Shown piece by piece: positions 17,848-34,702 of a stretch of 64,000 nucleotides of DNA; the stretch's first letter is position 1; every line of letters begins with the position of its first letter. Origin of the DNA: Fuscovulum blasticum DSM 2131 (lineage in GTDB: Bacteria > Pseudomonadota > Alphaproteobacteria > Rhodobacterales > Rhodobacteraceae); the NCBI RefSeq assembly GCF_003034965.1, contig NZ_PZKE01000002.1, positions 62,001-126,000 on the forward strand, read 5' to 3'. Below the pieces are notes generated by a model that was not told the origin of the DNA, made no database searches, and saw nothing but the letters and a program-made list of their open reading frames with translations. The position numbers and the translations under genes were made by a program.

Positions 17848-17859
17848 GGTCCGATCAGC

Positions 17860-18963
17860 TTAGCCGAGGAGCTTCGCCTCGACCATGGCCATGGCCTTCT
17901 GGTGGTCGGGTGACGGAAACAGATGGCCATACCGCTCCATGGTCATCTGGATCGAGGAGTGGCCCGCGAAGGTCATGATCTCCTTGATCGAGAAACCCTG
18001 TTCGATCCACAGCGACACGGCGAAGTGGCGCAGGTCGTGCCAGCGCATGGTGACCTCAACCTTTTCCAGCAGCTTGCGGAACCGGTCCTGCGTGCGGGTG
18101 TGTTGCAGGATCCCGCCCTGCGGCGCGGGGAACACCAGCCCCAGTTCGCTTTTCGGACAGCGCAGTTTCCAGCGGCGCAGGGCGTTCAGCACCATCGGCC
18201 CGGCAGGGATGTCGCGAAACCCGGCCCGCGATTTCGGCTCGCCCATCTGGTTGTAGGCGTCTGCGCGCTGGCGGATGTGGAGGAAGCCTTTGTCGAAATC
18301 GACGTCCTGCCAGCGCAGGCCCCGCAGTTCTGACGCGCGCAACCCGCCCAGCGCCGACACGATCAGATGCGGTTTGAAATCCTCATCAGCCGCTTCGATC
18401 AGCGCGCGGATGGCTTCCTTCGAAGGCACTGGGGCCTTGTGCTCTATCCGGCTGGACTTGATCACCCGCACGCCCTGCGCGGCATTGGTGAACAACTGGC
18501 CGTTGTCGATGGCATGGTCGAGGATCAGCTTCAGCACCGAAATCGCGCGGCGGGTCAGGTGTTCAGACCGGCCATTCAGCAGCAACCGGTCCCGCAGTTC
18601 GTTGACATGGCGGCGGGTCAACTGGGCAATCAGTTTGTCTCCGATGCCGATCTCGGGGGCGGTGATGTGCAGCCGCACATAGTCGCTGTAGCCGCGCAGC
18701 GTGGACCGCTCCATCCGCCGCCCCGTCTTGCAGCGCACCTCGCAGTGGTCGAGCCAAGCCTTCGCGGCATCGGCCACCGTGGTGCTGTCGCTGTCGGCCA
18801 GATAGGTATGATTGGCCACCAACGAGCGGACCTTGACCAGATAGACGTCGGCGTCCTTGCGGCGCGGGAACAGCTTGGACCGCCGCTTGCCCGCCTGGTC
18901 GGTGAAGTCCACCTGCCATCGGACCAAGCCCGAGGGCAGCGTGCGTTTGCGGATCGTGGCCAT
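17860..18963 (-). CDS. int: tyrosine recombinase (satellite integrase)
   Basis: A 367-residue phage integrase. Catalytic residues visible are R209 (GLRASELRGLRW), H309 and R312 (HDLRHF), H335 (AGHSS) and nucleophile Y345 (ERYGH). The N-terminal 60 residues form an arm-binding-like domain starting MATIRKRTLPSGLVRWQVDF; residues 62-160 are a SAM-like core-binding domain. The ATG at 18963 is chosen because it opens the conserved N-terminus. It sits near one junction, pointing to it, and would catalyse insertion at the tRNA anticodon-loop core. Confidence 0.95.
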   Translation of the reverse strand: MATIRKRTLPSGLVRWQVDFTDQAGKRRSKLFPRRKDADVYLVKVRSLVANHTYLADSDSTTVADAAKAWLDHCEVRCKTGRRMERSTLRGYSDYVRLHITAPEIGIGDKLIAQLTRRHVNELRDRLLLNGRSEHLTRRAISVLKLILDHAIDNGQLFTNAAQGVRVIKSSRIEHKAPVPSKEAIRALIEAADEDFKPHLIVSALGGLRASELRGLRWQDVDFDKGFLHIRQRADAYNQMGEPKSRAGFRDIPAGPMVLNALRRWKLRCPKSELGLVFPAPQGGILQHTRTQDRFRKLLEKVEVTMRWHDLRHFAVSLWIEQGFSIKEIMTFAGHSSIQMTMERYGHLFPSPDHQKAMAMVEAKLLG

Positions 18964-19097
18964 GATTTCCCTCCGTGATCGTAAGAAACGGGACCAGTTG
19001 TCAAAGCCCGTTAATTGGTGATATGAACCGTCGCACATGCACTTGCAATGGATTGTTGCGTGTGTAAAGCCCTTGTTCATGAACGGAGCCCTCATCA
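18964..19097. promoter_or_regulatory. divergent control region between integrase and replication operon
   Basis: A 134-bp spacer between oppositely transcribed integrase and regulator/replication genes. It holds a perfect 10-bp palindrome GTTCATGAAC at 19075-19084 and a related half-site TGAAC at 19023. In PICIs this spacer carries the master-repressor operators that a helper-phage protein relieves. Operator function here is inferred. Confidence 0.5.
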
Positions 19098-19814
19098 ATG
19101 ACAGCCAGCGAACGGAACGGTGCGGAAGCACCCGAACCGCTCTTCTATGGCGACGCAGACGCAGTGGCGGCATCGGGGATGCCCTTGCCCAGCCTGCGTG
19201 TCCTGCAAGCAGCCGGAGCCATTCAGGCGCAGAAAACCCCCAAGGAACACGGCGGCTTCAGGCGGTTGTGGCGCGAGGAGGACGTGCTGATTGCTGCGAT
19301 TGGTGCCGCGATCAGCGAGCACTTCGCCTGGAACATCCGGATCGTGGCCGAGGTGATGGCCAAGACAAAACCGGGCACATGGGCCGCGCTGACAGGCTCG
19401 ATTGCCGGGACCATTTCATCCGAGGAGGGCGCGCTGATCCGATCATCGCCAGACGACTGGCATCTCGACCTGATCGACCGGAAGTATCTGTTCCTGCGGG
19501 TGCCATCTCTGGTCGCCCTGCTTTTCCACGATGCACCGCCCCGGGAGACCAACCTGATTCTCGGGTATGCAACATCGAAGGACACATTCCAGATGCTGCC
19601 GTGGCTGCTTGGCAGTCCGGAGGGTCGTACCAAGCTCGCGGCCATCACCTCCCCGGCGCAGATCACGACCGGCGAACGCATCTACAAGCTGGCCATGGCG
19701 ACCCGCGCCAACGCACTGAGCACCGCCAGCGTCAACATCAGCATGCAGGTCCGCGCTACATGGCGCCGCCTCCACGGCCTTGACGCCCACTTCCTCCAAG
19801 ACGCCCTGCCCTAG
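19098..19814 (+). CDS. MerR-like DNA-binding protein of the satellite
   Basis: A 238-residue protein. Residues about 28-75 resemble a MerR-type winged helix: PSLRVLQAAGAIQAQK, then GGFRRLWREEDVLIAAIG. The rest is helical with no known domain. It is the first gene rightward from the divergent spacer, ahead of the AlpA-like gene and primase, so a transcriptional regulator of the lysogenic/replicative switch is the likely role. The family is not identified with certainty. Confidence 0.62.
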   Translation: MTASERNGAEAPEPLFYGDADAVAASGMPLPSLRVLQAAGAIQAQKTPKEHGGFRRLWREEDVLIAAIGAAISEHFAWNIRIVAEVMAKTKPGTWAALTGSIAGTISSEEGALIRSSPDDWHLDLIDRKYLFLRVPSLVALLFHDAPPRETNLILGYATSKDTFQMLPWLLGSPEGRTKLAAITSPAQITTGERIYKLAMATRANALSTASVNISMQVRATWRRLHGLDAHFLQDALP

Positions 19815-19827
19815 AAAGGAATCTCCA

Positions 19828-20079
19828 ATGACCCACCACCCTCGATCCCTTGACACCCTGAAGCAGACCGCGACCGAAGCGACGCTGGGCGATGACCTGC
19901 TGCGCGGCGCGGACGAAATCGCCAGGTTCCTGTTCGGCGACGTGAAGCATCGCCGCAAGGTCTACTACCTGACCGGTGAGGCACCGAAGGGCATGCCGCA
20001 CTTCAAGATGGGATCGGTGATCTGCGCCCGCAAAAGCACCATCCTGAACTGGATCGCAGAACAGGAGGGTCGTGCATGA
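19828..20079 (+). CDS. AlpA/excisionase-like helix-turn-helix protein
   Basis: An 83-residue protein. The DNA-binding part is ADEIARFLFGDVKHRRKVYYLTG, then MPHFKMGSVICARKSTILNWI, as in AlpA-type excisionase/regulators. The start ATG at 19828 has the GAAAGGA ribosome site upstream. It overlaps the primase start by 4 bases. AlpA next to a primase is a PICI hallmark; likely roles are excision and control of replication genes. Confidence 0.75.
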   Translation: MTHHPRSLDTLKQTATEATLGDDLLRGADEIARFLFGDVKHRRKVYYLTGEAPKGMPHFKMGSVICARKSTILNWIAEQEGRA

Positions 20080-22667
20080 CAGCCGCTGCTGCGGATGATC
20101 TCACCGACCTGCGCCTGACCCTCCATCGCAACGACTATCGCCCCGTTCCCGTCCTTGGTCCGCATGTGGCCACGAAATCTGCCGGGAAGCGTCCAGCCAT
20201 GAAATCCTGGGAGGCCGTTTGCGCGACGGCCGACGAGGCCGAAATCACCCGCTGGACCAACGCCCAACGCAATTGCACCAATACCGGCCTGCTCTGCGGC
20301 ACCCTGATCGGCATCGACATCGATGTACTGGACCGCGACCAGGCAAGCCGACTGACCTGCATGGCCACCGACATGCTGGGGCCTTCGCCCTTGTCCCGCA
20401 TCGGGCGTGCGCCGAAGATCCTGCTGGCCTTCCGAACCGATGTGCCCTTCGACAAGGTGCAGACCAGCGAGTTCCAGATGCTGGATGGCACAGTGGCGCG
20501 CGTCGAGGTGCTGGCGACGGGGCAGCAGTTCGTAGGCTTCGGCATCCATCCCGACACCAAGGCCCCCTATCACTGGCCAGAACGCTCGCCGCTGGATGTA
20601 CCGTTGCACGACCTGCCCATCGCCAGCCGCGACGCCTGTGCCGCCTTTATCGCCGCCGCAGAGGATTACCTGCGCAAGGCGGGCGGTCAGACCACCAGTG
20701 AACGGCGCGACATGGATCGCGAGGGGCGCAAGCTCGCTGGGTTGAAGCCGAAGGAAGCCCCCTCGCACGATCTGATAGCCGATGCCGTTGCCCATATCCC
20801 GAACAACGACCTGCCCTATGATGAATGGATCAAGGTGGGTCTTGCCCTTTATGCCGCGCTTGGCCCCGAGGGCCGAGACCTTTGGCAGGCCTGGTCAGCC
20901 GAGGCCGCGAAGAATGACCCGGCGCATACCGCCCTGAAATGGGACAGCTTTGCCGCCGTGCGCAACGTCACCGTCGGCACACTGTTCTGGCTGGCCAAAC
21001 AGAATGGCTGGCGCGCGGCGCAGCCGCGTCGGGTGCGCACCGCCCACACTAGCCGCGACGTCGGTGACGAAACCGCGACCCAAGGCAACCGCCCGCTCAT
21101 CCGCATCCGCGCAGGCCAGATGCCCGAGACCATCGACGAGGCCGAGGAGGCACTGCTTGGGTCCGGACTTGGCTTCTATCAGCGCGGCAGCATTGTCGTG
21201 CGCCCGGCCATGGTCCCGGTGGCGATCTCGGGTGGCAAACAGATCGACGCGCCGCGCCTCGTCCACGTCAAGGCGCACCACATGGCCGAGGCCTTCACCA
21301 AGGCCGCCCATTGGGAACGCTTCGACATGCGCGCCGGGGAATGGATCAACACCGACTGCTCGCAGCGGCTGGCTGAAACCTATCTGGCGCGCGAGGGCCA
21401 GTGGCGGCTGCCGGTGCTGACCGGAATCATCAATGCGCCCACCCTGCGCGACGATGGCTCGATCCTCGACCAACCAGGCTATGACGGGCAGACTGGCCTT
21501 CTGTTCGACCCGCAGGGCGAACGCTTCCCCCTGCTGCCGCGCGATCCCGACCGCGCCACAGCCTTGCGCGCGCTGGGCTTCCTGCGCGACCTGATCGGCA
21601 GCTTCCCCTTCGTCACGCCCGCCGACCGATCCGTGGCGCTGTCAGCCATCCTCACCACGCTGATCCGCCGCTCGCTGCCAACCGCGCCGCTGCACGGATT
21701 CAATGCACCCACCGCGGGGACGGGCAAATCCATGCTGGTCGATCTGGCCAGCATCATCGCCACCGCTCGCCCCGCGCCAGTGATCGCGCAGGGCAAATCC
21801 GAAGAGGAGATGGAAAAGCGGCTGGGTGCTGCGCTGATTGCAGGCGACGTGATGATCGCCATCGACAACTGCGAAGAACCCCTCGGCGGCGAACTGCTCT
21901 GCCAGGCGACGACCCAGACCAGCCTCAAGGTCCGCATCCTCGGCACGTCCCTGAATGCAGAGGTGCCGAGCAACGCGACGATGTTCGCCACCGGGAACAA
22001 CCTGACCCTTGCAGGCGACATGACACGCCGCGCCATCCGTGCCACGCTGGATGCCGGGGTGGAACGGCCCGAACTGCGCGCCTTCGACCGTGATCCCCTC
22101 ACCATGGTAGCGGCGCATCGCGGCGACTATGTCACGGCGGGTCTGACGATCTTGCGCGCCTTCCACGTCGCTGGTCGCCCGTCGCAGACGGTGCCGCTGG
22201 GCTCCTTCACCGCCTGGTCTGGCTGGGTACGCGATGCACTGATTTGGCTGGGCGAGGCTGACCCCTGCGAGACCATGGAGGGCATGCGCGGCGCGGACCC
22301 GAAGCTGGAGGCGCTGACGGCGGCGCTGGAGGAATGGCGATCGGTGATCGGCACCGACCGCGTCACGGTGCGCGAGATCATCGAACGCGCCGCCGCGCAG
22401 CAGACCCAGCTGTTCGGCAAGGCCGAGTTCGTGAACCCCGAGTTCCGCGAAGCCCTGCTCCGCGTCGCGGGCGAAGGCGGCGCGATCAACGGCACGCGCC
22501 TCGGCAAATGGCTGTCGCAGCATCAGAACCGCGTCGTCGCAGGCCACCGCATCATCGCGGCAGGCACCACCGGCAACCGGGCGCGCTGGCAACTGGACAT
22601 CGCGAACGCTGACGCCGCCCCGATCAACAACGGTTCTGATCCGTTCCGGAGGGCTGCCAATGCGTGA
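20076..22667 (+). CDS. satellite replication protein: primase-polymerase with helicase/ATPase domain
   Basis: An 863-residue replication initiator. Residues 15-210 form an archaeo-eukaryotic primase-polymerase domain (IGIDIDVLD catalytic acidic cluster, then FVGFGIHPDTKAPYHWPE). A PriCT-type domain follows (about 235-310, LPYDEWIKVGLALYAALG). The C-terminal half is a helicase/ATPase with Walker A NAPTAGTGKS (about 543-552) and Walker-B-like MIAIDNCEE. It would open and prime the adjacent origin and allow autonomous replication after excision. Confidence 0.85.
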   Translation: MTAAAADDLTDLRLTLHRNDYRPVPVLGPHVATKSAGKRPAMKSWEAVCATADEAEITRWTNAQRNCTNTGLLCGTLIGIDIDVLDRDQASRLTCMATDMLGPSPLSRIGRAPKILLAFRTDVPFDKVQTSEFQMLDGTVARVEVLATGQQFVGFGIHPDTKAPYHWPERSPLDVPLHDLPIASRDACAAFIAAAEDYLRKAGGQTTSERRDMDREGRKLAGLKPKEAPSHDLIADAVAHIPNNDLPYDEWIKVGLALYAALGPEGRDLWQAWSAEAAKNDPAHTALKWDSFAAVRNVTVGTLFWLAKQNGWRAAQPRRVRTAHTSRDVGDETATQGNRPLIRIRAGQMPETIDEAEEALLGSGLGFYQRGSIVVRPAMVPVAISGGKQIDAPRLVHVKAHHMAEAFTKAAHWERFDMRAGEWINTDCSQRLAETYLAREGQWRLPVLTGIINAPTLRDDGSILDQPGYDGQTGLLFDPQGERFPLLPRDPDRATALRALGFLRDLIGSFPFVTPADRSVALSAILTTLIRRSLPTAPLHGFNAPTAGTGKSMLVDLASIIATARPAPVIAQGKSEEEMEKRLGAALIAGDVMIAIDNCEEPLGGELLCQATTQTSLKVRILGTSLNAEVPSNATMFATGNNLTLAGDMTRRAIRATLDAGVERPELRAFDRDPLTMVAAHRGDYVTAGLTILRAFHVAGRPSQTVPLGSFTAWSGWVRDALIWLGEADPCETMEGMRGADPKLEALTAALEEWRSVIGTDRVTVREIIERAAAQQTQLFGKAEFVNPEFREALLRVAGEGGAINGTRLGKWLSQHQNRVVAGHRIIAAGTTGNRARWQLDIANADAAPINNGSDPFRRAANA

Positions 22668-22923
22668 CGACCAGTCCCGGATTGCCCGGTTAGGTTGGGT
22701 GGGTTTGGTTAGGTGCTTCCAGCCGTTAACAATGTTTGTCCCGAAAACTGTCAGCGACGTGGCAGAGCCACCGTGCCGACATGACACCACGCCCATCGCA
22801 TGTGACGCGACACATACAGGAAGTGGCCGGGATCACCTCACCCAACCCACCCACCCTAACCAGACGGTTCGGCAACGGGCGGCAACGCTTGGGATGGCTC
22901 GTGACAACATCCGAACCGTTGTT
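22626..22923. other. nested inverted repeats next to primase and terminase: probable origin and/or packaging site
   Basis: Outer arms AACAACGGTTC (22626-22636) and its exact complement (22913-22923). Inner 26-bp arms at 22688-22713 and 22836-22861 match at 23 of 26 positions; they are G/T-rich (GGTTAGG-TGGGTGGGTT). CGGTTC words recur at 22631, 22865 and 22933. The 336-bp gap 22668-23003 between primase and TerS holds no convincing gene. The iteron-like words suggest a replication origin; the place just before TerS suggests a packaging start. Both are inferred. Confidence 0.55.
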
Positions 22924-23003
22924 AGCAGCCGGGCGGTTCCTTTTGGGCCGATTTGTATGCGGGGGAGCGCAGCGCATGACCCCGCCAGCGTCAGGGGGCG
23001 GAA

Positions 23004-23525
23004 ATGACTAAACTCAACGCCTCTGAAACCAAGACCGCCTTCGCCACACGGGTCGGCCTGACCAAGGGCCGCATCTCGCAGTTGGTGGCCGAGGGTCTGC
23101 CGGTGCGACCCGATGGTCAGATCGATGTGGCCGAGGGGCTGGCATGGATCGAGGACAATCTTGATCCGTCGCGTCGCAACAAGGGTGGTGCCTTCGCCGC
23201 TCCTGCATCGCCCGCCCGCGTCTCGACCACGCTGGCCGAGGCCAAACGCCTGCATGAAATCGTCAAGGTGCAGCGAGCCAAGCTGGCGTTCGAACGCGAA
23301 CAGGGTCAGTTGGTCGAAACTCTCGCCGCAACCCGCACGGTATTTGCCCGCGCCCGTGCCGAACGCGACGCGCACATGGCTTGGGTGCAGCGCACAGCAC
23401 CGCTCTTGGCCGCCGAGGTCGGGGCCGATCCGCGCGCCACCTTCGCCGCACTGGACCGGATGATGCGCGAACATCTCGAACACCTGGCCGACATGCCGTT
23501 GGGGAGTTTTGGCGATGGTGCCTGA
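23004..23525 (+). CDS. terminase small subunit (Nu1-like)
   Basis: A 173-residue DNA-packaging protein. The N-terminal winged HTH is ATRVGLTKGRISQLVAEGLPV; the middle is a basic helix (EAKRLHEIVKVQRAKLAFEREQGQLVE); the C-terminus is helical and would contact the large subunit. It binds the packaging site and hands DNA to TerL. It overlaps the large subunit gene by 11 bp. Confidence 0.85.
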   Translation: MTKLNASETKTAFATRVGLTKGRISQLVAEGLPVRPDGQIDVAEGLAWIEDNLDPSRRNKGGAFAAPASPARVSTTLAEAKRLHEIVKVQRAKLAFEREQGQLVETLAATRTVFARARAERDAHMAWVQRTAPLLAAEVGADPRATFAALDRMMREHLEHLADMPLGSFGDGA

Positions 23526-25302
23526 AATTGACCTCGCCTGGCGGCGCGGCATCCGGCCGGAACCGCCGATCCCGGTGTCCGAGTGGGCCGACCGCCATCG
23601 CATCTTGCCGCCCACATCGGCGGAACCGGGCCGCTGGCGCACGGAACGCACGCCCTACTTGCGGGCGGTGATGGACGCCCTGTCCACCTCCAGCCCCTAT
23701 GAACGGGTCGTGCTGATGAAGGGCGCGCAGACGGGTGGCTCCGAGGCAGGGCTGAACTGGCTCGGCTACATCATCCAGAACGCACCCGGCATCGCCATGC
23801 TGGTCATGCCCTCGCTCGACATGGTGCGGCGCAACACCACCGTCCGGATTGATCCGCTGATCGAGGCCACCCCTGCTCTGCGCGATCTGGTGTCGGCCCC
23901 GAGGTCGCGGGACGCCGGGAACAGCCTGTTCCGCAAATCCTTCCCCGGAGGCCAGCTGGTGATGACCGGAGCGAACAGTGCGGTCGGCCTGCGGTCCACG
24001 CCCGTGCGCTACCTGTTTCTGGACGAGGTGGACGGCTATCCCGGCGACGCGGATGGCGAAGGCGATCCCGTTGATCTGGCGATCCAGCGCACCACCACCT
24101 TCCGGGGGCGGCGCAAGATCTACATGGTGTCCACGCCTACGCTGAAAGGCCACTCCCGCATCGAGGCCGCCTATCTCGACAGCGACCAGCGGTTTTTCCA
24201 TGTGCCCTGCCAGCATTGTAGCGACATGGCCCCGATCACATGGGCACGCATCCGCTGGCCCGAGGGGCAGCGTGACGCAGCCTATCTGGTCTGTGAGGCC
24301 TGCGGCGGCGTCCATCACGAGCATGAAAAGCCGCGCCTGATGGCTGCCGGTGAGTGGCGGCCGACCGCGCTGGGCGATGGCCGCACGGCAGGGTTCCACC
24401 TGTCGTCGCTCTATTCGCCATGGGAAACTTGGGCCGAGATCGCGCAGGAGCATGCCCGCGTCGCCAAGGATCCCGCCCGCCTTCAGGTCTGGGTCAACAC
24501 CAAACTGGGCGAGTCCTGGGAGGACCAGGCAGGTGACACCGTCCCCGCCGACCCGCTGATGGCGCGGCGCGAGGACTGGGGCGGCGACCTCGCCCCTGGC
24601 GTGGCCGTGCTGACAGCAGGCGTCGACGTGCAGGGCGACCGGATCGAGGTGCAGGTTGTCGGTTGGGGCCGCGACGAGGAAGCATGGGTCATCGACTACC
24701 GCGTCCTGTGGGGCGACCCTTCCGGCCCGCGCCTCTGGTCCGATCTGGATGGCGTGCTGAACGGCACCTATGGCGACCTGCCCGTGCGCGCCGTTGCTGT
24801 GGACACCGGCGGCCACCACACCAAGATGGCCTACGAGTTCTGCCGCACCCGCCTTGCCCGCCGCATCTGGGCCATCAAGGGCCGTGGTGGCCCCGGCATC
24901 CCGGTCTGGCCCCGGCGTCCCACCCGCAGCAACAAGGCAAAGATCCCGCTCTTCATCGTCGGCGTGGATGCCGTGAAGGACGCGGTCTACGCTCGCCTGA
25001 AACTGACCGAGCCCGGCCCCGGCGCCATCCACTTTCCCCGCCGCCTCGACGCCGACTACTTCCGCCAGTTGACCGCCGAACGCGTTGTCACCCGCTTCGA
25101 AAAGGGCCGCCCCATCCGCTCCTGGCAACCCAAGCGTGACGGCGAACGCAACGAGGCGCTGGACACCTTCGTCTACGCCCACGCCGCCCTGCACGGCCTG
25201 ATCAGCATGGGGATGCGTTTGAACGAAGAGGCGGAGGTGCTGCGGGCCCCACGGGCGATGCCCGCAGCTAAGCCAATCCGGTCGTCATGGATGGCGAACT
25301 AA
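23515..25302 (+). CDS. terminase large subunit (lambda GpA family)
   Basis: A 595-residue packaging motor-nuclease. Walker A-like GAQTGGSE (about residues 70-77), Walker B FLDEVD (about 166-171), a zinc-ribbon-like CQHC...CEACGG, and the nuclease domain from about 370 (AVLTAGVDVQGDRIEVQVVGWG; acidic residues in the GpA pattern). A separate large terminase means the satellite packages its own DNA. Its stop codon overlaps the stop of the convergent HNH gene. Confidence 0.93.
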   Translation: MVPEIDLAWRRGIRPEPPIPVSEWADRHRILPPTSAEPGRWRTERTPYLRAVMDALSTSSPYERVVLMKGAQTGGSEAGLNWLGYIIQNAPGIAMLVMPSLDMVRRNTTVRIDPLIEATPALRDLVSAPRSRDAGNSLFRKSFPGGQLVMTGANSAVGLRSTPVRYLFLDEVDGYPGDADGEGDPVDLAIQRTTTFRGRRKIYMVSTPTLKGHSRIEAAYLDSDQRFFHVPCQHCSDMAPITWARIRWPEGQRDAAYLVCEACGGVHHEHEKPRLMAAGEWRPTALGDGRTAGFHLSSLYSPWETWAEIAQEHARVAKDPARLQVWVNTKLGESWEDQAGDTVPADPLMARREDWGGDLAPGVAVLTAGVDVQGDRIEVQVVGWGRDEEAWVIDYRVLWGDPSGPRLWSDLDGVLNGTYGDLPVRAVAVDTGGHHTKMAYEFCRTRLARRIWAIKGRGGPGIPVWPRRPTRSNKAKIPLFIVGVDAVKDAVYARLKLTEPGPGAIHFPRRLDADYFRQLTAERVVTRFEKGRPIRSWQPKRDGERNEALDTFVYAHAALHGLISMGMRLNEEAEVLRAPRAMPAAKPIRSSWMAN

Positions 25303-26654
25303 AGCTCTCGACGCCGCCTGAGGTAGTCTAGATTCGGCCTTTGCTTGCTTGGCATTCTGAGAGTCGCACCATCAAATGGCCTCAAATACTCTTCAAGAGC
25401 GACATCGCCTGCGATGGCGCTCGGCAAAATATGAACTGTATAGTCATCGTTGATATATATGTATCCATATTCAAAAGCTCGATCCACCAAAACAGAAAGG
25501 CAGATTCCATTGGCAGGATCGAGTCTTATCGTCTTGTCGACACTCCATGGGACGATGTGAGACGCGATGAGAAATTCTCTTGAACTTATACCCGTAAGCG
25601 CGCATCGCCAACCGTAATTGTCCTTTACTCTCTTTGCAAAAGCCTGTTGCGCACTGCCTCGAGTCTTGGACACTCCTTCTTTGTCGGGTGCCTCGAAATT
25701 CCCTGCATCAATCAAAACCTCGAATTCTTTGACTTCTTCTTCCGAGCTATTGAGCTCCTCCGCCAGCGAGTCCCGATCAATAGACAGCGGCACTCTTTTA
25801 CCTTGGCCTCCGCTCGGTGACGGACCACCAGAGCCTTGGGTGCCGTTTGGCTGCTGCGTGTTTGCTCCCTGACCACTGCCCGACGAAGGTTTGGTACCGC
25901 CTTGGCCGCTGCCGGACGATGGCGTTGTCGCACCCTGACTGCTGCTTGATGACGGGGCTATTGTCCCCCTACTGTTGCCCGGCAATGAAGAACCCACTTT
26001 GCTCCATGGGCTAAATTTGGCATCGGGGTCGAAGAATACCACAGCGGGATCCTGCGGGCTGTCGAACAAATGCCATCTCACGGCCGAGTTCTGTGTTGTG
26101 GACATTGCCAGATTTTGAACCAGACCGGGCGCACTTTTAAGGTCCGCCCACTGAAAATTTGGAGTTGGGTTATTAACATGAACTCGAAGGTGCAGCGTAT
26201 TACCATCGCCAAACAACTTCACAGCGATCAAGTACGGCTGACCAAAGCTCTGCAGCGAGAGTTGTAAAAACTCTCCATCCGCTTGCAACGCCGTAACGAA
26301 GTTGGGGTCTCCGGGAATAGTTTCAATGGTTGTTTTATCAGGGTTGGGCGCCATACGCCACGCCGCTGGAGGCTTGTTCGTCCCCCAAGCCAAATGCGGC
26401 CGATCGGCTGACTCTGAAAAGATTTTTCCATCTGTATGACCCGAGGGCCATCTATACGTGATGGGGGTAGACGGCGCACCAGCGCCTAATGTGGGAAATG
26501 CAACGCCCAAGTCGTGGATGAATTCGGACCGCCGAGGCAGTTGGATGTAGTCTTTCGAATATTTGGACTCTCCGCTAAGCCTCCCGTAGACTGCTCGGTG
26601 AGCAGTTGCATTGTAATTCACAACAAGTATCCACTGTACTGCCTGAAAACTCAT
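25299..26654 (-). CDS. HNH restriction endonuclease (cargo R-M system)
   Basis: A 451-residue protein. A unique N-terminal domain (about 1-220) is joined by a Ser/Gly-rich linker with repeated TPSSGSGQG-like units (about 225-285) to a C-terminal HNH nuclease. That has [16 protein letters not shown] (HNH histidine), ANGICLS and DRAFEYGYI. The ATG overlaps the stop of the methylase gene as ATGA, so the two are one R-M operon. The DNA is visibly AT-richer than the head genes. Its target is presumably the adenine-containing site methylated by its partner. Confidence 0.8.
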
Positions 26655-27547
26655 GCTTGCGACCCAATTACAATTGCTTCTGGTGACTTATGCGCTTCCA
26701 CTTCACGACGGCTTTGAGCGGCCAGGGCACGGTGCGCGGTGAAACTAATAATATCATGCTTTGAAAACAAATCGCGAACAACTTCGGTGTCTCGATTTGA
26801 CATTATCCAGGAGACCCCTCGATCACTCAACTCATTACAAACCCGAGCCAGATCCACCAGATCGACCATCTCAAAGGTTTTCGCTGTATATTTATTGAAC
26901 TTTGCCGTTGGCTCTTTTTCGACTGTCGGTTTGGAAAATATTGGCAGATAAGGTGGATCTAAATACACAAAATCACCTTCCTTGGCAGACGAAACCAAAT
27001 CTCGGAAATCGCAACATCTTATCTCTGCGCCTATCAACAGGAAGCGGATGCTCTCAAGCTCCTCAGCAGAGAACCCCTTAAATTTACGATCCCCCCAAGG
27101 CACATTCATGGCACTTGTTTTTGAGTTCTCGCGCCAGAGGTGGTTCCATGACACACCGTTGAGATACAGAAAGCGGGCGGCCTTCTCCAAATCTGATTGC
27201 GGCTGCTCGGCGCGTACTTCATAGTAGAAGCTCTTGGAGTCGTGTTCATGGTACCAATCCAGTAGCGGCTTCAGCTCTTCCGGCCTGTCACGAAGAGCTG
27301 TCCATGCAGCAACAAGGTGAGGATTCAAGTCCGCCAGATATGGCGTACCCGCTATCCTTGACTGGCAGGCGATGAACACGGCGCCACCACCAAGAAATGG
27401 CTCAAAGTAGTTCACCACGCGCGCTGGAACGTGCGGCAAGATGCGTGGCAGCAAGCGTGACTTTCCTCCGACCCACCGTATGAACGGTTTTCGGACACTT
27501 GCAGGGGCTGGGTTCACGGTACGTACTTCCTTCGAAACTACTGGCAT
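26651..27547 (-). CDS. D12-class DNA adenine methylase (cargo R-M system)
   Basis: A 298-residue Dam-type methyltransferase: RWVGGKS (residues 24-30), SAM motif YFEPFLGGG (47-55) and catalytic DPPY (197-200). The ATG at 27547 gives the conserved N-terminus. Followed by the HNH gene with a 4-base overlap. It protects the satellite host from the linked endonuclease. It is clearly different from the Mu-like phage methylase at 1521. Confidence 0.9.
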
Positions 27548-27648
27548 TTTGGGCTTCAACGATCTACGAGTAGTAGGCAAGATGCTTGGGCCACACAAGG
27601 CGGGGCGCAACCGTTTCGTAACCAGATGCCGCTAAGAGCTGAGGACAG

Positions 27649-28962
27649 ATGTCAGGTATTTCATTATCGTGGGAGAACAAAGATCGGACGCTTCTGGCGT
27701 CCGGAACGGATTCGTACGAGTGGGTAGACTCTTCCTGTCCGCTGCTCCGAGAACTCCCGAAGGTCGAGATTGTGGGTCCAGAAGCACCCAAGCCGAACGG
27801 CAATGTCCTCGTCATCGGTGATGGGCTCGATGCACTCTGCGCGCTAGATGCGTCCACAACTATCCTCGCAGACAAAATTCGCCTCGTGTACATCGACCCC
27901 CCCTTCAATGCCAGTGCAGACGTCAAATGCTATGGTGATACCATGGAACGCTCCATGTGGCTGGGCATGCTTCGTGATCGCTTGGTGGCCCTGAAACCTC
28001 ACCTGTCTGACGACGCGAGCGTTTGGGTGCACCTCGATGATGCAGAGGTTCACCGAGCCCGTCTCGTAATGGACGAAGTGTTTGGCGATGGTGCATTCGT
28101 AACATCGATAATATGGCAAAAACGAATGACCCGGGAATCCAGATCGGCGTTTTCAAATAACCATGACACGATACTGGTATACGCACCCAGCGGCCCGAGG
28201 AAATGGAAGACCACAAGGAACTTGCTGGCGAAAAATACAGCGCAACTTGATAATCGAGATAACGACCCGCGAGGTCCGTGGGCGGACGCTCCATTCACGG
28301 CTCCAGGGTTTCGCGCCGCCCAGCAATATCCGATCACCACACCCTCTGGAAAGGTACTTACCCCCCCTCGCGGACGTTCATGGTACGCAACGGAATCAAC
28401 TTATAAAAACCTTCTTGCCGAGGATAGGATTTGGTTTCCGAAGAATGGTGGCGGTTCTCCCCGATTGAAGTTGTTCAGCCATCAGCTGCGGGGATTGGTG
28501 CCATTCACAATTTGGAGCAATTCAGAAACCGGGACAAATGATGAGGCAAAACGACATCTTCTTTCCATTTTTCCGAATGGAGATGTATTTGACACCCCAA
28601 AGCCTGAAGAGCTTTTGGAGCGCATCATCCATATATCCACCCAGCCCGGCGAACTCGTTGTGGATCTATTTGCTGGCAGTGGCACGACAGCCGCAGTCGC
28701 TCACAAGATGAGGCGAAAGTGGATCACTGTTGAACGAAACATCCAAACCGTGTGTGATTTTACACTGCCGCGCCTTCAAGCAGTTACATCGGGAGAGGAT
28801 AGGGGCGGCATTTCGGATATCGCAAATTGGCGGGGTGGCGGCGAGTTTTCGGTCCTCGAAGTGTCGCCTAGGCTTGGGCGGCCTTCGAACAACAGTTGTA
28901 GAGCTCGCATCGAGAAGCTTTTGTCATCACGCGACAAAATCGAAGCTAAAGTTGCAGGGTAA
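27649..28962 (+). CDS. beta-class DNA methyltransferase (Mod-like)
   Basis: A 437-residue methyltransferase with catalytic DPPF (83-86) ahead of the SAM motif DLFAGSGTT (about 338-346), the motif order of beta-class N6-adenine or N4-cytosine enzymes such as type III Mod. No Res subunit is nearby. Transcribed divergently from the D12 methylase across a 101-bp spacer. It may be an orphan methylase or supply a second specificity to the linked HNH enzyme. AT-richer than the flanking head genes. Confidence 0.85.
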   Translation: MSGISLSWENKDRTLLASGTDSYEWVDSSCPLLRELPKVEIVGPEAPKPNGNVLVIGDGLDALCALDASTTILADKIRLVYIDPPFNASADVKCYGDTMERSMWLGMLRDRLVALKPHLSDDASVWVHLDDAEVHRARLVMDEVFGDGAFVTSIIWQKRMTRESRSAFSNNHDTILVYAPSGPRKWKTTRNLLAKNTAQLDNRDNDPRGPWADAPFTAPGFRAAQQYPITTPSGKVLTPPRGRSWYATESTYKNLLAEDRIWFPKNGGGSPRLKLFSHQLRGLVPFTIWSNSETGTNDEAKRHLLSIFPNGDVFDTPKPEELLERIIHISTQPGELVVDLFAGSGTTAAVAHKMRRKWITVERNIQTVCDFTLPRLQAVTSGEDRGGISDIANWRGGGEFSVLEVSPRLGRPSNNSCRARIEKLLSSRDKIEAKVAG

Positions 28963-29105
28963 GTCAGCGAGCCGTAGGGGTTCGGGACATGGCACTCGCG
29001 GCCAACTCCCAACACCATTTGCCATAGTCAACAATGAAGAACTTTCCCGAGCAATCCCAATCGCTCTGATACCTCAGTGACGCTGAAAATGGGAAAATCC
29101 GCGCC

Positions 29106-30515
29106 ATGCGGACGCTCCTTCATCGCCTTTTTGGCTTCACGCGCACACGCGGCTTTGACGCTGCGGGTGGCGGCCGCCGTTGGGAAGGCCAGCGCACCGT
29201 CGACGGGCTGAACACGGCGATCCTCGCGGGCGCGACCACGGCGGCGCGGCGGGCCGGGTGGTATGCGCGGAACAACCCTTGGGTAGCGGCGGCGGTGGAC
29301 AGCCTGGTGGGCAATGTCGTCGGCGCCGGGATCAAGCCACAATCGACCCATCCCGACCGGGCGGTGCGCGAGCGGCTGCAGGTGCTGTGGCTGCGCTGGA
29401 CCGATCATGCCGATCCGGGCGGGCTGGCGGATTTCTATGGGCTGCAGGCCATGGCAGTGCGGGCGATGGTCGAGGGCGGGGAGAGTTTTGCGCGGCTGCG
29501 TGTGGTGCGGGGTGCGGCCGCCGTTCCCTTACACATCGACCTGCTGGACCGGGATCAGGTGCCGCTGGATCTGCACCGCGATATCGGTGGCGGCGCACGC
29601 ATCCGGGCTGGCATCGAATTCAACGGCGCTGGGCAGCGCACCGCCTATTGGGTGATGCGGGACCGGCCTGGTGATCCGCTGACCTCCCTGCGGCTGGAAC
29701 CGTTGCGTCTGCCCGCTACGGATTGCCTGCATCTTTTCAAGCCGCTGGCTGCTGGCCAGTTGCGCGGGATCACCTGGCTCGCGCCAGTGCTGCTCCGGCT
29801 GCACGAGTTGGACCAGTTCGAGGATGCGGCGCTGGTGAAGGCCAAGGTGGCCGCGCTGTTCACCGGCTTCATCACCGATCCGGATGGCACGGCGGGCGGC
29901 CTGAGCGGGACGAACACCAACGGCGCGCTGACCGTGGGCATGGAGCCCGGCAGCCTGATCCCCCTGCCGCCCGGCACCGACATCCGGTTTTCCAACCCGA
30001 CCGAGAGCGACGCCTACGGTCCCTTCGTCAAGAACCACCTGCGCGCCGTGGCTGCAGGGATGGGCCTGCCCTACGAACTGGTCTCGGGCGATCTGGAAGG
30101 CGTGACCTATTCCTCGATCCGCGCTGGGCTGATCGAGTTCCGCCGCCGGGTCGAGCAGTTGCAGCACAACGTCGTCGTGCATCTGTTCTGCCGCCCGGTC
30201 TGGGAACGTTTCGTGCGATTGACGGTGCTGACCGGCGATCTGCCCGCGCGAGACTTCGACCGTGACACAGCCGCCTATCTCGGCTGCGAATGGCTCCCGC
30301 CCAAGTTCGACTACGTCGATCCCAAGAAGGACGTCGAGGCAGAGATCCTCGCCATCAACGCAGGTCTCAAAAGCCGACGCCAGGCAATTTCCGAACGGGG
30401 CTACGACGCCGAACAGGTCGATGCCGAGATTGCCGCCGACAAGGCGCGCACTGATGCGCTGGGCCTGAGCTTCGGTGCGCCGCCTGTCCAGAAGGAGGAC
30501 ATCCCCGATGAATGA
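29106..30515 (+). CDS. portal protein (lambda gpB family)
   Basis: A 469-residue lambda-type portal, with the N-terminal ARRAGWYARNNPWVAAAVDSL, the central ITWLAPVLLRLHELDQFEDA and the LPYELVSGDLEGVTYSSIRAG signature. It forms the dodecameric packaging vertex. It resumes the head operon after the R-M block (gap 28963-29105 without a gene). The stop overlaps the next start (ATGAATGA). Confidence 0.92.
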   Translation: MRTLLHRLFGFTRTRGFDAAGGGRRWEGQRTVDGLNTAILAGATTAARRAGWYARNNPWVAAAVDSLVGNVVGAGIKPQSTHPDRAVRERLQVLWLRWTDHADPGGLADFYGLQAMAVRAMVEGGESFARLRVVRGAAAVPLHIDLLDRDQVPLDLHRDIGGGARIRAGIEFNGAGQRTAYWVMRDRPGDPLTSLRLEPLRLPATDCLHLFKPLAAGQLRGITWLAPVLLRLHELDQFEDAALVKAKVAALFTGFITDPDGTAGGLSGTNTNGALTVGMEPGSLIPLPPGTDIRFSNPTESDAYGPFVKNHLRAVAAGMGLPYELVSGDLEGVTYSSIRAGLIEFRRRVEQLQHNVVVHLFCRPVWERFVRLTVLTGDLPARDFDRDTAAYLGCEWLPPKFDYVDPKKDVEAEILAINAGLKSRRQAISERGYDAEQVDAEIAADKARTDALGLSFGAPPVQKEDIPDE

Positions 30516-32310
30516 CACCATCACCCTGCTGACGCGCCGCGCCGACCTGGCTCCGGCCAGTGCTGACCAAGATGCCCGCACTGTAGAGGTGATCTGGTCC
30601 ACTGGTGCGCCCGTGCGTCGCCGCGACATAGCTGGACCCTATGTCGAACGCCTAAGCCTTGCGCCCGAGGCGGTGGACCTGTCGCGCCTCCAAGGGGCCA
30701 GCGTGCTGGATGCCCACCGGCAATCCGCCGTCCGCGATGTGCTTGGCAGCGTCCAATCGGCCAGCGTCGATGGCCAGCGCGGCACGGCGCTGATCCGCTT
30801 CTCGGCACGGCCCGAGGTGGAACCGCTCTGGCAGGATGTCCTGTCGGGGATCCTTCGGCATGTCTCGGTTGGCTATTCGGTCGAGGAATGGGCCGAGGCC
30901 ACCGCGAACGGCGCGCGGGTTCTGACCGCCGTGCGCTGGACCCCCCACGAGATTTCCCTTGTCCCCACCCCGGCTGACCCGGGTGCATATATCCGCATGG
31001 AGACCAACATGACCGATACCACCATCACCCCGGCCCCGCCCGAGACCCAGACCCGCGCCACGATCAACACCGAAATCCGCTCCATTGCCCGCATCGCCGG
31101 GCTGGACCAGTCCTGGATCGACGGCCAGATCGACGCCGCCGCCGATGAGGATACAGCCCGTCGTGCGGCCTTCGAGGCGCTGGCCAGCCGCAGCGCGCCC
31201 ACGATCCGCACCGAACAGGTCCGCGTCGAGATGGGCGAGAGCCAGGACGACCCGGCCTTGCGTGCCCGCCAGATGGGCGAGGCCCTCTATGCGCGCATCA
31301 ACCCGCGCCACGACCTCAGCGAACCCGCCCGCCGCTATGCCTATGCAACACCGGTGGACATGGCCAAGGAACTGCTGACCCTGCGCGGCGAGTCCACGAT
31401 GGCCCTGTCGCCCGCCAGCCTCGTCACCCGTGCCCTGCACACGACCTCGGACTTCCCGATCATCCTCGGCAACACCGTGGGCCGGGTGCTGCGCGATGCT
31501 TATCAGGCTGCGCCATCCGGCATCCGCCGCCTTGGCCGCCAGACCTCCGCTCGGGATTTCCGGTCGGTGAACAAGATCATGCTGGGCGAGGCCCCCCTGC
31601 TGGAAAAGCTGAACGAGCACGGCGAGATCAAGGCCGGGACGATGGCCGAGGCGCGCGAGGCCTATAAGATCGAGACGTGGGCCAAGAAGATCGGCATCAC
31701 CCGGCAGGTGCTGGTGAACGACGACCTTGGAGCGTTCTCGGACCTTGCCCGCCGCATGGGCCAGGGGGCCGCCGAAACCGAGGCGCGGATCCTCGTCACC
31801 CTGCTTGAGGCGAACAGCGGCAACGGCCCGACCCTGTCGGACACCAAGGCCCTGTTTCATGTCGATCACGGCAACAAGGCAGGCACCGGCGCGGTAATCT
31901 CCGATGCCACGCTGTCCGCCGCCCGGCTGGCGCTGCGCACCCAGAAGGGCATCGACGGGCGCATCATCCGGGTGACGCCGAAGAACCTGCTCGTCCCGCC
32001 CGCGCTGGAGACCGTGGCCGAGAAGTGGCTCGCCACCATCGCGCCCGCAACCGCCGCCGATGTGAACCCCTTCTCGGGTGCCATGTCGCTGGTGGTGGAA
32101 CCCCGCCTGTCCAGTGCCACGCGCTGGTATGTCACCGCCGACCCCGGCGAGATCGACGGCCTCGAGTTCGCCTACCTTTCGGGCAACGAGGGGCCCCAGG
32201 TGGAAAGCCGGTCGGGCTGGGATGTGGACGGCGTGGAAATCCGGGTGATCCTGGACTTCGGTGCGGGCTTCATCGACCACCGCGGCTGGTTCCAGAACGC
32301 CGGCGCGTAA
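30508..32310 (+). CDS. fused prohead protease and major capsid protein
   Basis: A 600-residue fusion. Residues 1-165 are a prohead protease (U35-type) with LDAHRQSAVRDVLGSV (probable catalytic H70) and RHVSVGYS (probable S120). Residues about 195-600 are a major capsid domain with AREAYKIETWAKKIGITRQVLVNDDLGAF and a C-terminal domain ending in IDHRGWFQNAGA. The two are separate genes in most phages; here the protease must be removed after assembly. The ATG at 30508 overlaps the portal stop. Confidence 0.85.
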   Translation: MNDTITLLTRRADLAPASADQDARTVEVIWSTGAPVRRRDIAGPYVERLSLAPEAVDLSRLQGASVLDAHRQSAVRDVLGSVQSASVDGQRGTALIRFSARPEVEPLWQDVLSGILRHVSVGYSVEEWAEATANGARVLTAVRWTPHEISLVPTPADPGAYIRMETNMTDTTITPAPPETQTRATINTEIRSIARIAGLDQSWIDGQIDAAADEDTARRAAFEALASRSAPTIRTEQVRVEMGESQDDPALRARQMGEALYARINPRHDLSEPARRYAYATPVDMAKELLTLRGESTMALSPASLVTRALHTTSDFPIILGNTVGRVLRDAYQAAPSGIRRLGRQTSARDFRSVNKIMLGEAPLLEKLNEHGEIKAGTMAEAREAYKIETWAKKIGITRQVLVNDDLGAFSDLARRMGQGAAETEARILVTLLEANSGNGPTLSDTKALFHVDHGNKAGTGAVISDATLSAARLALRTQKGIDGRIIRVTPKNLLVPPALETVAEKWLATIAPATAADVNPFSGAMSLVVEPRLSSATRWYVTADPGEIDGLEFAYLSGNEGPQVESRSGWDVDGVEIRVILDFGAGFIDHRGWFQNAGA

Positions 32311-32519
32311 TGGCAGACCTCGCGCAACTCACCACCTGGCGCGATGTCCTGATGGCCGCCCGCTATCAGGGCATCCGCACCGTTGAATACGACGGCAAGC
32401 GGGTGACCTACGCCACCGACGCGGAAATGGCGGCCGCCCTGGGGGACCTCAACCGCCAGATCACCGGCACCACGGCGCGCATCGCCGTGGTCCGCATCCA
32501 ATCCTCGAAAGGGCTCTGA
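32310..32519 (+). CDS. gpW-like head-tail joining protein
   Basis: A 69-residue connector: LTTWRDVLMAARYQGIRTVEYDGKRVTYATDAEM is the lambda gpW pattern. It plugs the portal and makes the surface a tail attaches to. It starts on the last base of the capsid stop codon. A siphovirus-type connector suggests that the tails captured are of that type. Confidence 0.85.
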   Translation: MADLAQLTTWRDVLMAARYQGIRTVEYDGKRVTYATDAEMAAALGDLNRQITGTTARIAVVRIQSSKGL

Positions 32520-32521
32520 CC

Positions 32522-32866
32522 ATGCAGAACTTCATTCAGAACGGCGACGTCATCACCGTGCCCGCTCCCGCAGGCGGCATCGCATCTGGCGAGGGCGTGA
32601 TCGTCGGCAATATCTTCGGCATCGCCGCCTATGCGGCCGCCGTGGGCGAACCGGTCGAACTGGCCACGACGGGCGTCTATCAACTGCCGAAAACCACCGC
32701 CGCCGTGCTGACGGTCGGCGCACGCGTGGCTTGGGACAACACGGCCAAGAACATCAACGTGCCGGGCACCGGGCGTTTCCCCGTGGGCATCGCGACCGAG
32801 GCTGCCGGGAACGGCATCACCAGCGTCGCTGTTCGGGTGGATGGCGTGGGGACCGTGGCAGCATGA
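32522..32866 (+). CDS. DUF2190 family head protein (capsid decoration-like)
   Basis: A 114-residue protein with the DUF2190 signature: NFIQNGDVITVPAPAGGIASGE, then GVYQLPK and VAWDNTAKNI. Proteins of this family decorate or stabilise capsids and occur beside capsid genes. It overlaps the following gene by 4 bases. Confidence 0.85.
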   Translation: MQNFIQNGDVITVPAPAGGIASGEGVIVGNIFGIAAYAAAVGEPVELATTGVYQLPKTTAAVLTVGARVAWDNTAKNINVPGTGRFPVGIATEAAGNGITSVAVRVDGVGTVAA

Positions 32867-33177
32867 TGGAGCGAGATATCCGCGCCGTTCTGCATGGTCT
32901 CACCCTGTTGGTCGCTGACACGAATGGGGCGAGCCAGCTTGATGCGATGCGCAATTACGCAGCGATCATGGCCCTGTGCGCCGATCTCCGGAGGTCGGCT
33001 ACTGAATACAATGGGACATGGAACATCACTATGGTCATCGGTGAGGTGGAAAACCATATGGCCGCGGTCGCTGGGCTGTTCCCCACCTGGGACTTGCCGC
33101 AGGATCAACACCGCGTGGGCGCACATGCTGCCATCAGCAAGCTGGCCATGGGCACGTGCTTTGGCTTGACCGTCTAA
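32863..33177 (+). CDS. uncharacterised satellite head-operon protein
   Basis: A 104-residue helical protein (MMERDIRAVLHGLTLLVAD) with no recognised domain, coupled to the DUF2190 gene by ATGATG overlap. It is the last gene of the structural operon, where a helper-tail adaptor or size-determining factor might be expected; this is inference. Confidence 0.65.
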   Translation: MMERDIRAVLHGLTLLVADTNGASQLDAMRNYAAIMALCADLRRSATEYNGTWNITMVIGEVENHMAAVAGLFPTWDLPQDQHRVGAHAAISKLAMGTCFGLTV

Positions 33178-33320
33178 TCGGGCGGGATGTTGCGATACGT
33201 GGCATCCCTTTTTCTGTTCCACCTTGGTCGTGACGCGGCTATCTGCCTCATCAACACCCGTTGCGAGGCGACCTGGGCGACATTGCCGGTTTCTGCCCTG
33301 TTCAAGCCGAAGTAATCTGT

Positions 33321-33342
33321 CCCGAAATACGATTCTTTCGGG
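33321..33342 (+). other. 7-bp-stem hairpin before the accessory gene
   Basis: CCCGAAA and TTTCGGG pair across an 8-base loop, ending 7 bp before the ATG of the next gene. No T-run follows. The hairpin would sequester the start region in mRNA and may control translation. The remaining gap 33178-33320 shows nothing else. Confidence 0.35.
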
Positions 33343-33349
33343 CACTTTC

Positions 33350-34561
33350 ATGGACGGCGGAGCAACACGGCAAGCTGCAGACCTGTCACGCGAAGAAATC
33401 TACGCGCTTGTCTGGGAGCATCCTCTCAATCGGGTCGGCCCCGATCTCGGGCTAGATGGCCCGCGTCTGGCGAAGCTTTGCGACAAACGCCAGATTCCGT
33501 ATCCACCTCTTGGTTACTGGTCGAGGAAGGCCGTAGGCCGGGCACCAGCTGCGCCGCCGTTACCAGCAGACCCTGGAATGGGCGCCGAACCTACAGCAGC
33601 ACCTCGTGCTTGCCCCTCGCAGCAGCGCGAACCCCTGCCTCGTTTGAAGCCGCCTACTTCCTTCAAAGATGCGGCGCCACCGCCTGCGGCGCCGACCACG
33701 GTCGAACCGTTGGCACCTGTTGATGATCGCTTGGACCCGCTTGACAAGCTGCACCCAAAGATTCGCGCGTGGATCGTTGAGCATGCTCGGGAACAAAAGG
33801 AACGCATTCAGGAGAACAAACGTCGGAGGCACGATCCATGGTCGTGGTCGAAGTCGCTCCTTGATGATCTGACAGAACGCGACCTCTATCGCTTTCGTGC
33901 CAGCAGCACGCTTTGCCACGCGTTCGAGAAGGCGGGGGCAAAGGTCAAGACTGCGGACCTGCACGGGAAGCTCACGTTCACCTCAGAGGGGCGCGACATC
34001 GAGTGTGCGGTCAAGGAGAAGATGTCCCGCCCGATGAAGCGGCCTGAAGGCGACGCTGCAAAGTGGACGGCCTATCCGCAGCACCACAACTCCGGACTGA
34101 CGTCGTCCGGTTGGCTTCGGGCGCAAATTACCACCTGGCTACCGGGGGAGCAGCCACAGTGGATCGAGGCTCCGAAGAAGCCATTTGCAGCCCTAATTCC
34201 GGCAATCGTAGCATCGGTGATCGCCTGCGTACCCCGACTGATCGAATGGGAACGACAGCGCGAAGAAGAACGCCGACGATACCAGGAAGAGGAAAGGCGT
34301 CGGTGGGAGCAGCGGCGCTTGCAGGAAATCGATGATGGTCGATGGGCACGTTTTCGATCGGCCGCCACGAATTGGCGAGAGAAACAGCTTCTGGACACGT
34401 TCATCGCTGAACTGGAGGCGCGGTTGTTGTCCGAGGGGGATCAGTTGCTTGGCGACAGGACAACCGCGGAATGGCTCGGCTGGGCGAAGGAACGGGCCAC
34501 TGATCTGGACCCTTTGACCGAGGGCATCACCGGACTGTTCAGGGATATCTTGCGGCCGTGA
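33350..34561 (+). CDS. right-end accessory protein with HTH-like N-terminus and charged coiled coil
   Basis: A 403-residue protein. The N-terminus (about residues 10-62) LSREEIYALVWEHP then RLAKLCDKRQIPYPPLGYW is a DNA-binding-like module seen at the start of many uncharacterised mobile-element proteins. A Pro-rich segment follows (65-130). Residues about 295-345 are an extreme Glu/Arg coiled coil. It sits alone next to the attachment site, the usual place for defence or interference cargo. No function is assigned. Confidence 0.65.
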   Translation: MDGGATRQAADLSREEIYALVWEHPLNRVGPDLGLDGPRLAKLCDKRQIPYPPLGYWSRKAVGRAPAAPPLPADPGMGAEPTAAPRACPSQQREPLPRLKPPTSFKDAAPPPAAPTTVEPLAPVDDRLDPLDKLHPKIRAWIVEHAREQKERIQENKRRRHDPWSWSKSLLDDLTERDLYRFRASSTLCHAFEKAGAKVKTADLHGKLTFTSEGRDIECAVKEKMSRPMKRPEGDAAKWTAYPQHHNSGLTSSGWLRAQITTWLPGEQPQWIEAPKKPFAALIPAIVASVIACVPRLIEWERQREEERRRYQEEERRRWEQRRLQEIDDGRWARFRSAATNWREKQLLDTFIAELEARLLSEGDQLLGDRTTAEWLGWAKERATDLDPLTEGITGLFRDILRP

Positions 34562-34702
34562 CCCACATCACGTCGTCGGAGACCGGAACATCCGGTGAAC
34601 ATCACGCTCACTGCGTGTCGCATGGGTGTTGCACGGAGGAAATCGGAACGGCTGCAAGCCTTTGGAATCACGAAGAAACGTGTTGTTCTGTGTTGCAAAC
34701 GC

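Follow-up and report, generated by a model that had tools for sequence, protein, structure and literature searches.

The genome of Fuscovulum blasticum DSM 2131 contains, on contig NZ_PZKE01000002.1, a phage satellite whose genes for the terminase large subunit (TerL) and the portal protein are separated by three predicted restriction-modification (R-M) genes. The satellite lies in a stretch of 64,000 nt (positions 62,001 to 126,000 of the forward strand), which is called the window here and to which all coordinates refer. Comparison with related elements indicates that the gap from terL to the portal gene is a cargo site with exchangeable content, always filled and mainly given to R-M systems. 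In the window, the variable insert reaches from the TerL stop to the portal start (25303 to 29105), and the same slot was filled in all 156 loci in which it could be read, by 119 distinct inserts. The satellite appears to carry bacterial immunity in exchangeable form. The original prediction, made from the window's letters, had described the R-M genes as a moron inserted between terminase and portal; their nature as cargo and their location in the packaging and head region of a satellite held up, while the implied one-off acquisition did not, as an insert is present in each of the readable loci.

Relatives were gathered in three capped searches, with the fused protease-capsid protein (best 80 of 157 matches), a portal alignment (73 genome loci) and TerL (best 80 matches) as queries. 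A locus was counted if both the C-terminus of TerL and the N-terminus of the portal could be placed, which gave the 156 loci, the window among them. Left out were loci without both genes, eight contigs with TerL only, the filtered loci L143 (which has a C5-methylase insert), L146 and L295, and the window copies or non-satellites L001, L002, L160 and L161. Inserts were collapsed at 98% identity over 90% of the longer insert, in a single blastn piece, to arrive at the 119 distinct ones. Their size ranges from 889 to 7583 nt, with the two smallest in distant relatives (portal 42-44% identical). No empty slot occurs among the 156 loci, so that the comparison with satellites lacking the block, as proposed in the original prediction, has no natural subject in this set. 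In 15 regions of sampled genomes with a related TerL and portal (portal 31-43% identical), the distance between the two genes, a rough value projected to the gene ends, was 289-422 nt in 12 cases and 964, 1013 and 2030 nt in the other three.

A DNA methylase is encoded in 98 of the 119 distinct inserts, of which 95 were recognized by tblastn (E ≤ 1e-10 to any of 39 profile-confirmed methylases) and three (L257, L291, L300) by a direct profile match; in the core family, with a portal at least 80% identical, the count is 91 of 106. Open reading frames (ORFs) in the inserts were taken from a simple script and not from a gene caller, and the methylases of L101 and L128 were recovered by tblastn. 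The methylase-bearing inserts include a C5 methylase with EcoRII (L126), N6 type II, type IIG, MmeI-like and type I-like forms. Grouping at a cut of 50% methylase identity divides the 119 inserts into 74 groups, where an insert that has no reference methylase forms a group by itself. One insert (L293) has a REase_II match and no methylase. Four carry other defence-like genes (NERD-UvrD in L270, SIR2-nSTAND in L278, IetA in L284 and a kinase with VWA in L117), and three appear surface-like (GtrA with a glycosyltransferase in L122, FkbM in L060, and L050, for which the label is a guess; families DUF4910 and Antibiotic_NAT). The other 13 inserts are of other or unknown content; six of these were searched with profiles (L005, L113, L130, L139, L254, L275), and L124, L133/L299, L288, L298, L303, L309 and L312 were classified by eye alone.

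The G+C content of the insert is below that of its flanks in 119 of 119 cases (mean 0.561 versus 0.686). Used as queries, the slot methylases matched nothing in the neighbourhood of the slots, which comprised 1.41 Mb without deduplication and extended at most 7 kb before and 6 kb after each slot. For one methylase family, PF01555, 32 occurrences in 20 related genomes (about 78 Mb in total) translate into a chance presence of about 0.15% per 3.6-kb stretch.

The relation between inserts and their backbones points to exchange. Fifty-two pairs of distinct inserts lie next to portal genes that are at least 95% identical over their first 700 nt (maximum 96.1%), yet differ in their best-matching methylase, counting pairs in which an insert lacks a methylase. 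In the opposite direction, six cassette pairs are 96-98% identical over 2.5-3.5 kb, with portal starts of 85-89% and TerL ends of 91-93% identity, and in 27 of 91 pairs from the same group slot identity exceeds portal identity by at least 3 points over at least 1 kb. The cassette of the window is itself rare. The original prediction had named conservation of the same genes as core in all relatives as a finding that would speak against cargo; at E 1e-5, the HNH gene occurs in 1 of the 156 slots, namely that of the window, while the D12 methylase has relatives of 24-28% identity in six other loci and the beta-class methylase relatives of 25-46% identity in ten.

In six genomes with several satellites (15 readable slots), the cassette groups all differ within each genome. 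Three satellites with different cassette groups were seen in the metagenome-assembled genome AG16 (L084, L096, L111) and in Cereibacter ovatus (L086, L094, L110). An avoidance of cassettes within one genome is not demonstrated by this pattern, since two random inserts share a group with a probability of only 0.013.

As originally described, the three genes of the window occupy positions 25299-28962 and run partly opposite to the head genes: a gene for an HNH endonuclease, the predicted restriction enzyme (25299-26654, minus strand), a D12 or Dam-family adenine-N6 DNA methyltransferase (26651-27610, minus strand) and a divergent beta-class N6/N4 DNA methyltransferase (27649-28962, plus strand). 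The block is no chance feature: its ORFs are long, intact and well matched by profiles, strongly for both methylases and clearly for the HNH domain. The start of the HNH gene overlaps the stop of the D12 gene (ATGA), and the claim of a coupled methylase-nuclease operon is borne out; the HNH stop indeed overlaps the TerL stop, by two bases. Calculated per 1 kb, the G+C content is 0.50-0.57 in the block against 0.66-0.68 in adjacent segments that lie outside or almost outside it, which supports the proposed AT-richness and a foreign composition; at third codon positions it is 0.52-0.54 in the three cassette genes versus 0.81-0.85 in TerL, portal and capsid.

The D12 methylase matches PF02086 (E 1.2e-39), TIGR00571 dam (E 1.5e-53, exceeding its cut-off) and, in phmmer, the DpnII methylase 2dpm (E 7e-40). 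Its TTG start from the ORF list is probably too long, and the ATG at 27547 fits better, because the alignment with a plasmid homologue begins at residue 38. This homologue belongs to a module on a plasmid of Paracoccus sp. Arc7-R13 (NZ_CP034812), which carries the same three genes in identical order and orientation, including the divergent beta methylase. Identities between window and plasmid are 67% for the beta methylase, 71% for D12 and 45% for HNH, the latter aligned over its full length with gaps in the linker. A tblastn search of plasmids with the HNH protein gave 29 records; among those listed, the Arc7-R13 protein is a near full-length relative, and the other 19 matches cover the C-terminal part only. 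The plasmid module differs from that of the window in being plasmid-borne, in adjoining a recombinase-family gene and in its shorter HNH linker; no phage structural genes are annotated in the 11.2 kb around it, in gene tables (PLSDB) that are incomplete. The shared divergent order is the reason to count the beta methylase as part of the system, and D12, HNH and beta methylase form one three-gene module. The original prediction had correctly placed a beta-class methylase there, as one that follows the operon; it is to be counted as part of the module instead.

We consider it quite probable that the cassette is a type II-like R-M system in a dedicated terL-portal slot, that it restricts foreign phages, and that new content enters the slot when satellites recombine with each other. 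Methylase and nuclease are encoded together, as in type II R-M systems. The D12 and beta methylases would mark a recognition site, perhaps one strand or one site each, and the HNH enzyme would cut unmarked incoming DNA, so that the carrier cell restricts foreign phages. When satellites meet, recombination, most simply via the conserved terL and portal flanks, could swap the R-M or defence module. The marking-and-cutting half of this mechanism draws on knowledge of the enzyme families, and the swapping half on different cassettes on closely related backbones and near-identical cassettes on diverged backbones; enzyme activity, recognition site, defence benefit, the exact recombination route and helper dependence are inferred.

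Several observations weigh against this reading. Twenty of the 119 inserts have no methylase or restriction-enzyme match, and some of them resemble ordinary genes by eye (such as L303, metabolic). In 64 of the 91 same-group pairs, slot identity does not exceed portal identity, and vertical inheritance therefore also occurs. The methylase queries of the control beside the slots were drawn from the slots themselves, so that unrelated methylases would escape it. Finally, the solved structure closest to the HNH domain, 6yex (E 2.7e-9, about 95 residues aligned), has two histidines around VD, which we take to be metal ligands, whereas leucine and arginine stand in their places in the protein of the window; for this reason catalysis is not certain, and the HNH protein is a likely but not certain active nuclease.

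A serious companion explanation, which is not exclusive of the defence reading and which we regard as possible but doubtful as the main one, is that the cassette is chiefly a selfish stabilizer of the satellite. Upon loss of the satellite, the nuclease would act on unmethylated host DNA and cause post-segregational killing, with defence as a secondary effect. Several type II systems are established cases of R-M addiction, all readable loci are filled, as expected if cargo-free satellites were lost, and the module also occurs on a plasmid beside a recombinase-family gene. Against this, the four defence-like inserts without R-M and the three surface-like ones suggest selection for phage exclusion in general. 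An unlikely, more far-reaching idea is that the slot is obligatory for the life cycle of the satellite: an immunity module, usually a DNA-marking one, could serve as an identity tag that excludes satellites and helpers of other types, allows packaged DNA to survive in recipients of its own type and becomes diverse as cassettes are exchanged. If true, R-M systems would here make up something like an incompatibility locus with interchangeable content.

The beta methylase is type III Mod-like. Besides PF01555 (E 4.2e-40), this protein matches a type III methyltransferase as its top PADLOC model (E 5.5e-94) and the Mod protein 6k0w (phmmer, E 3e-34), and relatives of 42-43% identity occur in slots L101, L287 and L305, whose other genes were not identified. 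It could thus be the remnant of a type III system that has lost Res, beside a separate two-gene D12-HNH system, which we hold to be rather unlikely. The cassette does not show the pairing of Mod with Res that defines type III R-M: no match to the Res helicase-nuclease was found in the three slot-filling ORFs of the window, and none is annotated beside the plasmid copy. The 67% identical beta methylase in the same divergent three-gene order on the plasmid also argues against a stray remnant.

The HNH protein consists of an N-terminal part (residues 1 to about 217) that is kept in the plasmid homologue, a low-complexity linker (about 230-290) and a C-terminal HNH domain, which matches PF13391 HNH_2 above cut-off in a profile search (E 2.3e-9, residues 351-402); the protein also matches the PADLOC HNH model PDLC04132 (E 4e-34). 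The linker is composed of repeats rich in serine, glycine and glutamine, and is much shorter in the plasmid homologue. A single-sequence fold model was unusable (mean predicted local distance difference test score, pLDDT, 31.7). In the class, 5 of 385 sampled genomes have a match at E ≤ 1e-10, the source genome among them, and in the other four it covers the C-terminal HNH part only. The sole NCBIfam match of the protein, at E 4.4e-6 and with 26 bits where the cut-off is 180, is to a restriction enzyme that binds phosphorothioate DNA, and 6yex is a modification-dependent SRA-HNH enzyme. Both could point to a type IV-like nuclease that cuts foreign modified DNA, with the methylases serving another purpose; both matches are, however, restricted to the HNH part, and the ATGA overlap of D12 and HNH is that of a methylase-nuclease pair, which makes this improbable. 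It is very improbable that the enzyme serves the terminase region in homing or packaging, with the methylases as bystanders: homing nucleases, HNH included, are often found near phage terminase genes according to PMC10448857, and the HNH gene touches the TerL stop, but its N-terminal part is kept together with both methylases on the plasmid, it is found in the window only among the 156 slots, and another slot has an EcoRII-type restriction enzyme beside a cytosine methylase.

The two borders of the slot differ. On the left, the edge is the TerL stop itself, with no conserved base beyond it across the 119 inserts. On the right, information content is raised about 53-29 nt before the portal ATG, where the window has a box with two TTCCC repeats (29043-29073, plus strand); in its strict two-repeat form, the box occurs at the right edge of 53 of the 119 inserts and three times elsewhere. 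It is equally a candidate for a head-operon promoter or operator, a packaging (cos) site or a recombination site. A head-operon promoter or operator in the box would account for the tolerance of inserts in either direction; the insert methylases run along TerL in 75 cases and against it in 20. Directly after TerL, similar DNA around a GGTCACTGTGACC-like sequence was seen in L015, L037, L094, L108 and L112, which have different methylase groups. Variants of this insert start occur in L049, L101 and L128, and the first ORF of L049 resembles a Phd-type antitoxin by eye.

The satellite as a whole encodes an integrase (17860-19173, minus strand; phrog_1, E 1e-66), a primase-like replication protein of 863 aa (20076-22667, plus strand; PF08707 PriCT_2, phrog_29234, phrog_1156) and, all on the plus strand, a terminase small subunit (23004-23525; phrog_57, E 2.2e-32), the GpA-family TerL that forms the left border of the slot (23509-25302; PF05876 and PF20454, GpA nuclease domain E 2.2e-94), the portal protein at its right border (29106-30515; portal match E 2.8e-101, families PF05136 and TIGR01539), a fusion of prohead protease and major capsid protein (30475-32310; NF045541, E 2.8e-223), the true start of which is possibly downstream of the listed GTG, and a cement or head decoration protein (32522-32866; PF09956, phrog_122). 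No tail profile was matched among the 11 satellite proteins scanned (several small ORFs were not scanned), and no head-tail adaptor was recognized among them, a 104-aa ORF at 32863-33177 not having been profile-searched. An annotated relative on the Paracoccus plasmid NZ_CP102356 has the same layout of integrase, toprim protein, TerL, insert, portal, protease-capsid fusion and DUF2190 protein; its insert comprises a cytosine methylase, an HNH enzyme and a second methylase, and no tail gene is annotated in it, in the incomplete gene tables of PLSDB. The satellite presumably depends on the tail of a helper. In a collection of named phages, the capsid fusion has no close relative: all 156 records found stay below 60% identity, with Rhodobacter phages among those listed at about 34%. 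The hosts of the 73 genome loci are mainly Rhodobacterales, with some Rhizobiales and Rhodospirillales. These elements make up a widespread, mostly alphaproteobacterial, capsid-encoding satellite family. L107 and L328 represent a satellite on a contig labelled Oceanobacillus, a label that is probably wrong because the G+C content of the locus is 0.67. Near the right end of the satellite, an ORF of 445 aa with lower G+C content and no profile match lies at 33224-34561; this region may be a second cargo site, since different ORFs occupy the place in L017, L036, L084 and L092.

The satellite (17194-34811, about 17.6 kb added) lies within genes of a Mu-like prophage on the minus strand, which were found from about 10.5 kb to 52.2 kb of the window. 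To its right are MuA-like and MuB-like genes, terminase, minor head protein and capsid, and to its left head-tail adaptor, neck protein and sheath. It sits between a gp35-like and a gp36-like gene of the prophage late operon, matches to which are about 95-365 bases apart in four near relatives of the prophage (L162, L163, L164, L166). At its right end is a tRNA-Met (34764-34838, minus strand), read as a hybrid of a local 5' half and a satellite-borne 3' half. A search for attachment repeats at first yielded no more than 13 matching bp at the end with the tRNA. A 10-bp attachment core, GGCCTCATAA, was then located in the anticodon region (34802-34811, minus strand) and at the left end (17194-17203, minus strand), where it is followed by the displaced 3' half of the tRNA, and a tRNA-Met of 75 nt is restored when the flanks are joined by a script. 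Because of this restoration, and since prophage genes surround the satellite, it seems to have entered a prophage-borne tRNA gene, and so to have split the late operon. The 3' half of the window tRNA equals that of the 77-nt tRNA-Met that ends satellite L084, and the same 28-nt tRNA 3' end is present at one further place in the host genome. A tRNA gene natural to Mu-like relatives at that place was considered and rejected: tRNA-Met was found in none of 59 other loci (L162-L220, of 79), and another tRNA in three (L167, L200, L202). Left of the Mu-like tail genes, an ORF at 1521-2435 resembles another D12 methylase by eye (APWIGGKRNLA).

Defence hotspots of satellites are already known from enterobacterial P4 and P2. 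What our results add is that a different, widespread satellite family gives one slot in its packaging region mostly to R-M systems and, in 156 loci, never leaves it empty. The slot offers a defined place for finding new R-M and other defence systems, and a natural experiment on the movement of R-M genes between hosts. It furthermore provides a testable case of R-M systems in the competition between mobile elements, and not solely in the service of the host. A full-text literature search, which covered few subscription journals, brought up no satellite family of this kind with a slot for R-M systems between terL and portal.

Among known systems, two-methylase R-M of the kind seen in insert L007 (halves of PADLOC PDLC03302) likewise pairs a beta-class with a D12 methylase; the window differs in its HNH nuclease and in a beta methylase that is type III Mod-like and encoded divergently. 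Like the capsid-forming phage-inducible chromosomal islands (cf-PICIs) mentioned in PMC11389934 and PMC10448857, the satellite is an integrated element of satellite size with its own terminase, prohead protease and capsid genes. cf-PICIs are not known to have tail genes and take the tails of their helpers; in the satellite, no tail gene was recognized among the 11 proteins scanned. The satellite differs in its fused protease and capsid, in having no recognized head-tail adaptor and in the R-M slot inside its head region; the 863-aa protein, with its PriCT_2 and primase PHROG matches, may be a counterpart of the Pri-Rep replication initiator of cf-PICIs. P4-like satellites use the capsid and terminase of a helper, whereas this one encodes its own. 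A close parallel to the slot is found in the P4 and P2 hotspots, which, according to Rousset et al. 2022 (PMC9122126), are about 1-5 kb in size, with type II and III R-M systems in P4; the P2 hotspot is flanked by gpA and gpQ, the latter being the portal gene, and adjoins cos. In both cases, a small locus of high turnover with defence-gene cargo is enclosed by two conserved genes and accepts inserts in either orientation, and the slot adjoins the portal gene as that of P2 adjoins gpQ. What sets the slot apart is its position between terL and portal in a mostly alphaproteobacterial satellite with its own terminase, portal and capsid, together with its constant occupancy and the prevalence of methylases in its inserts.

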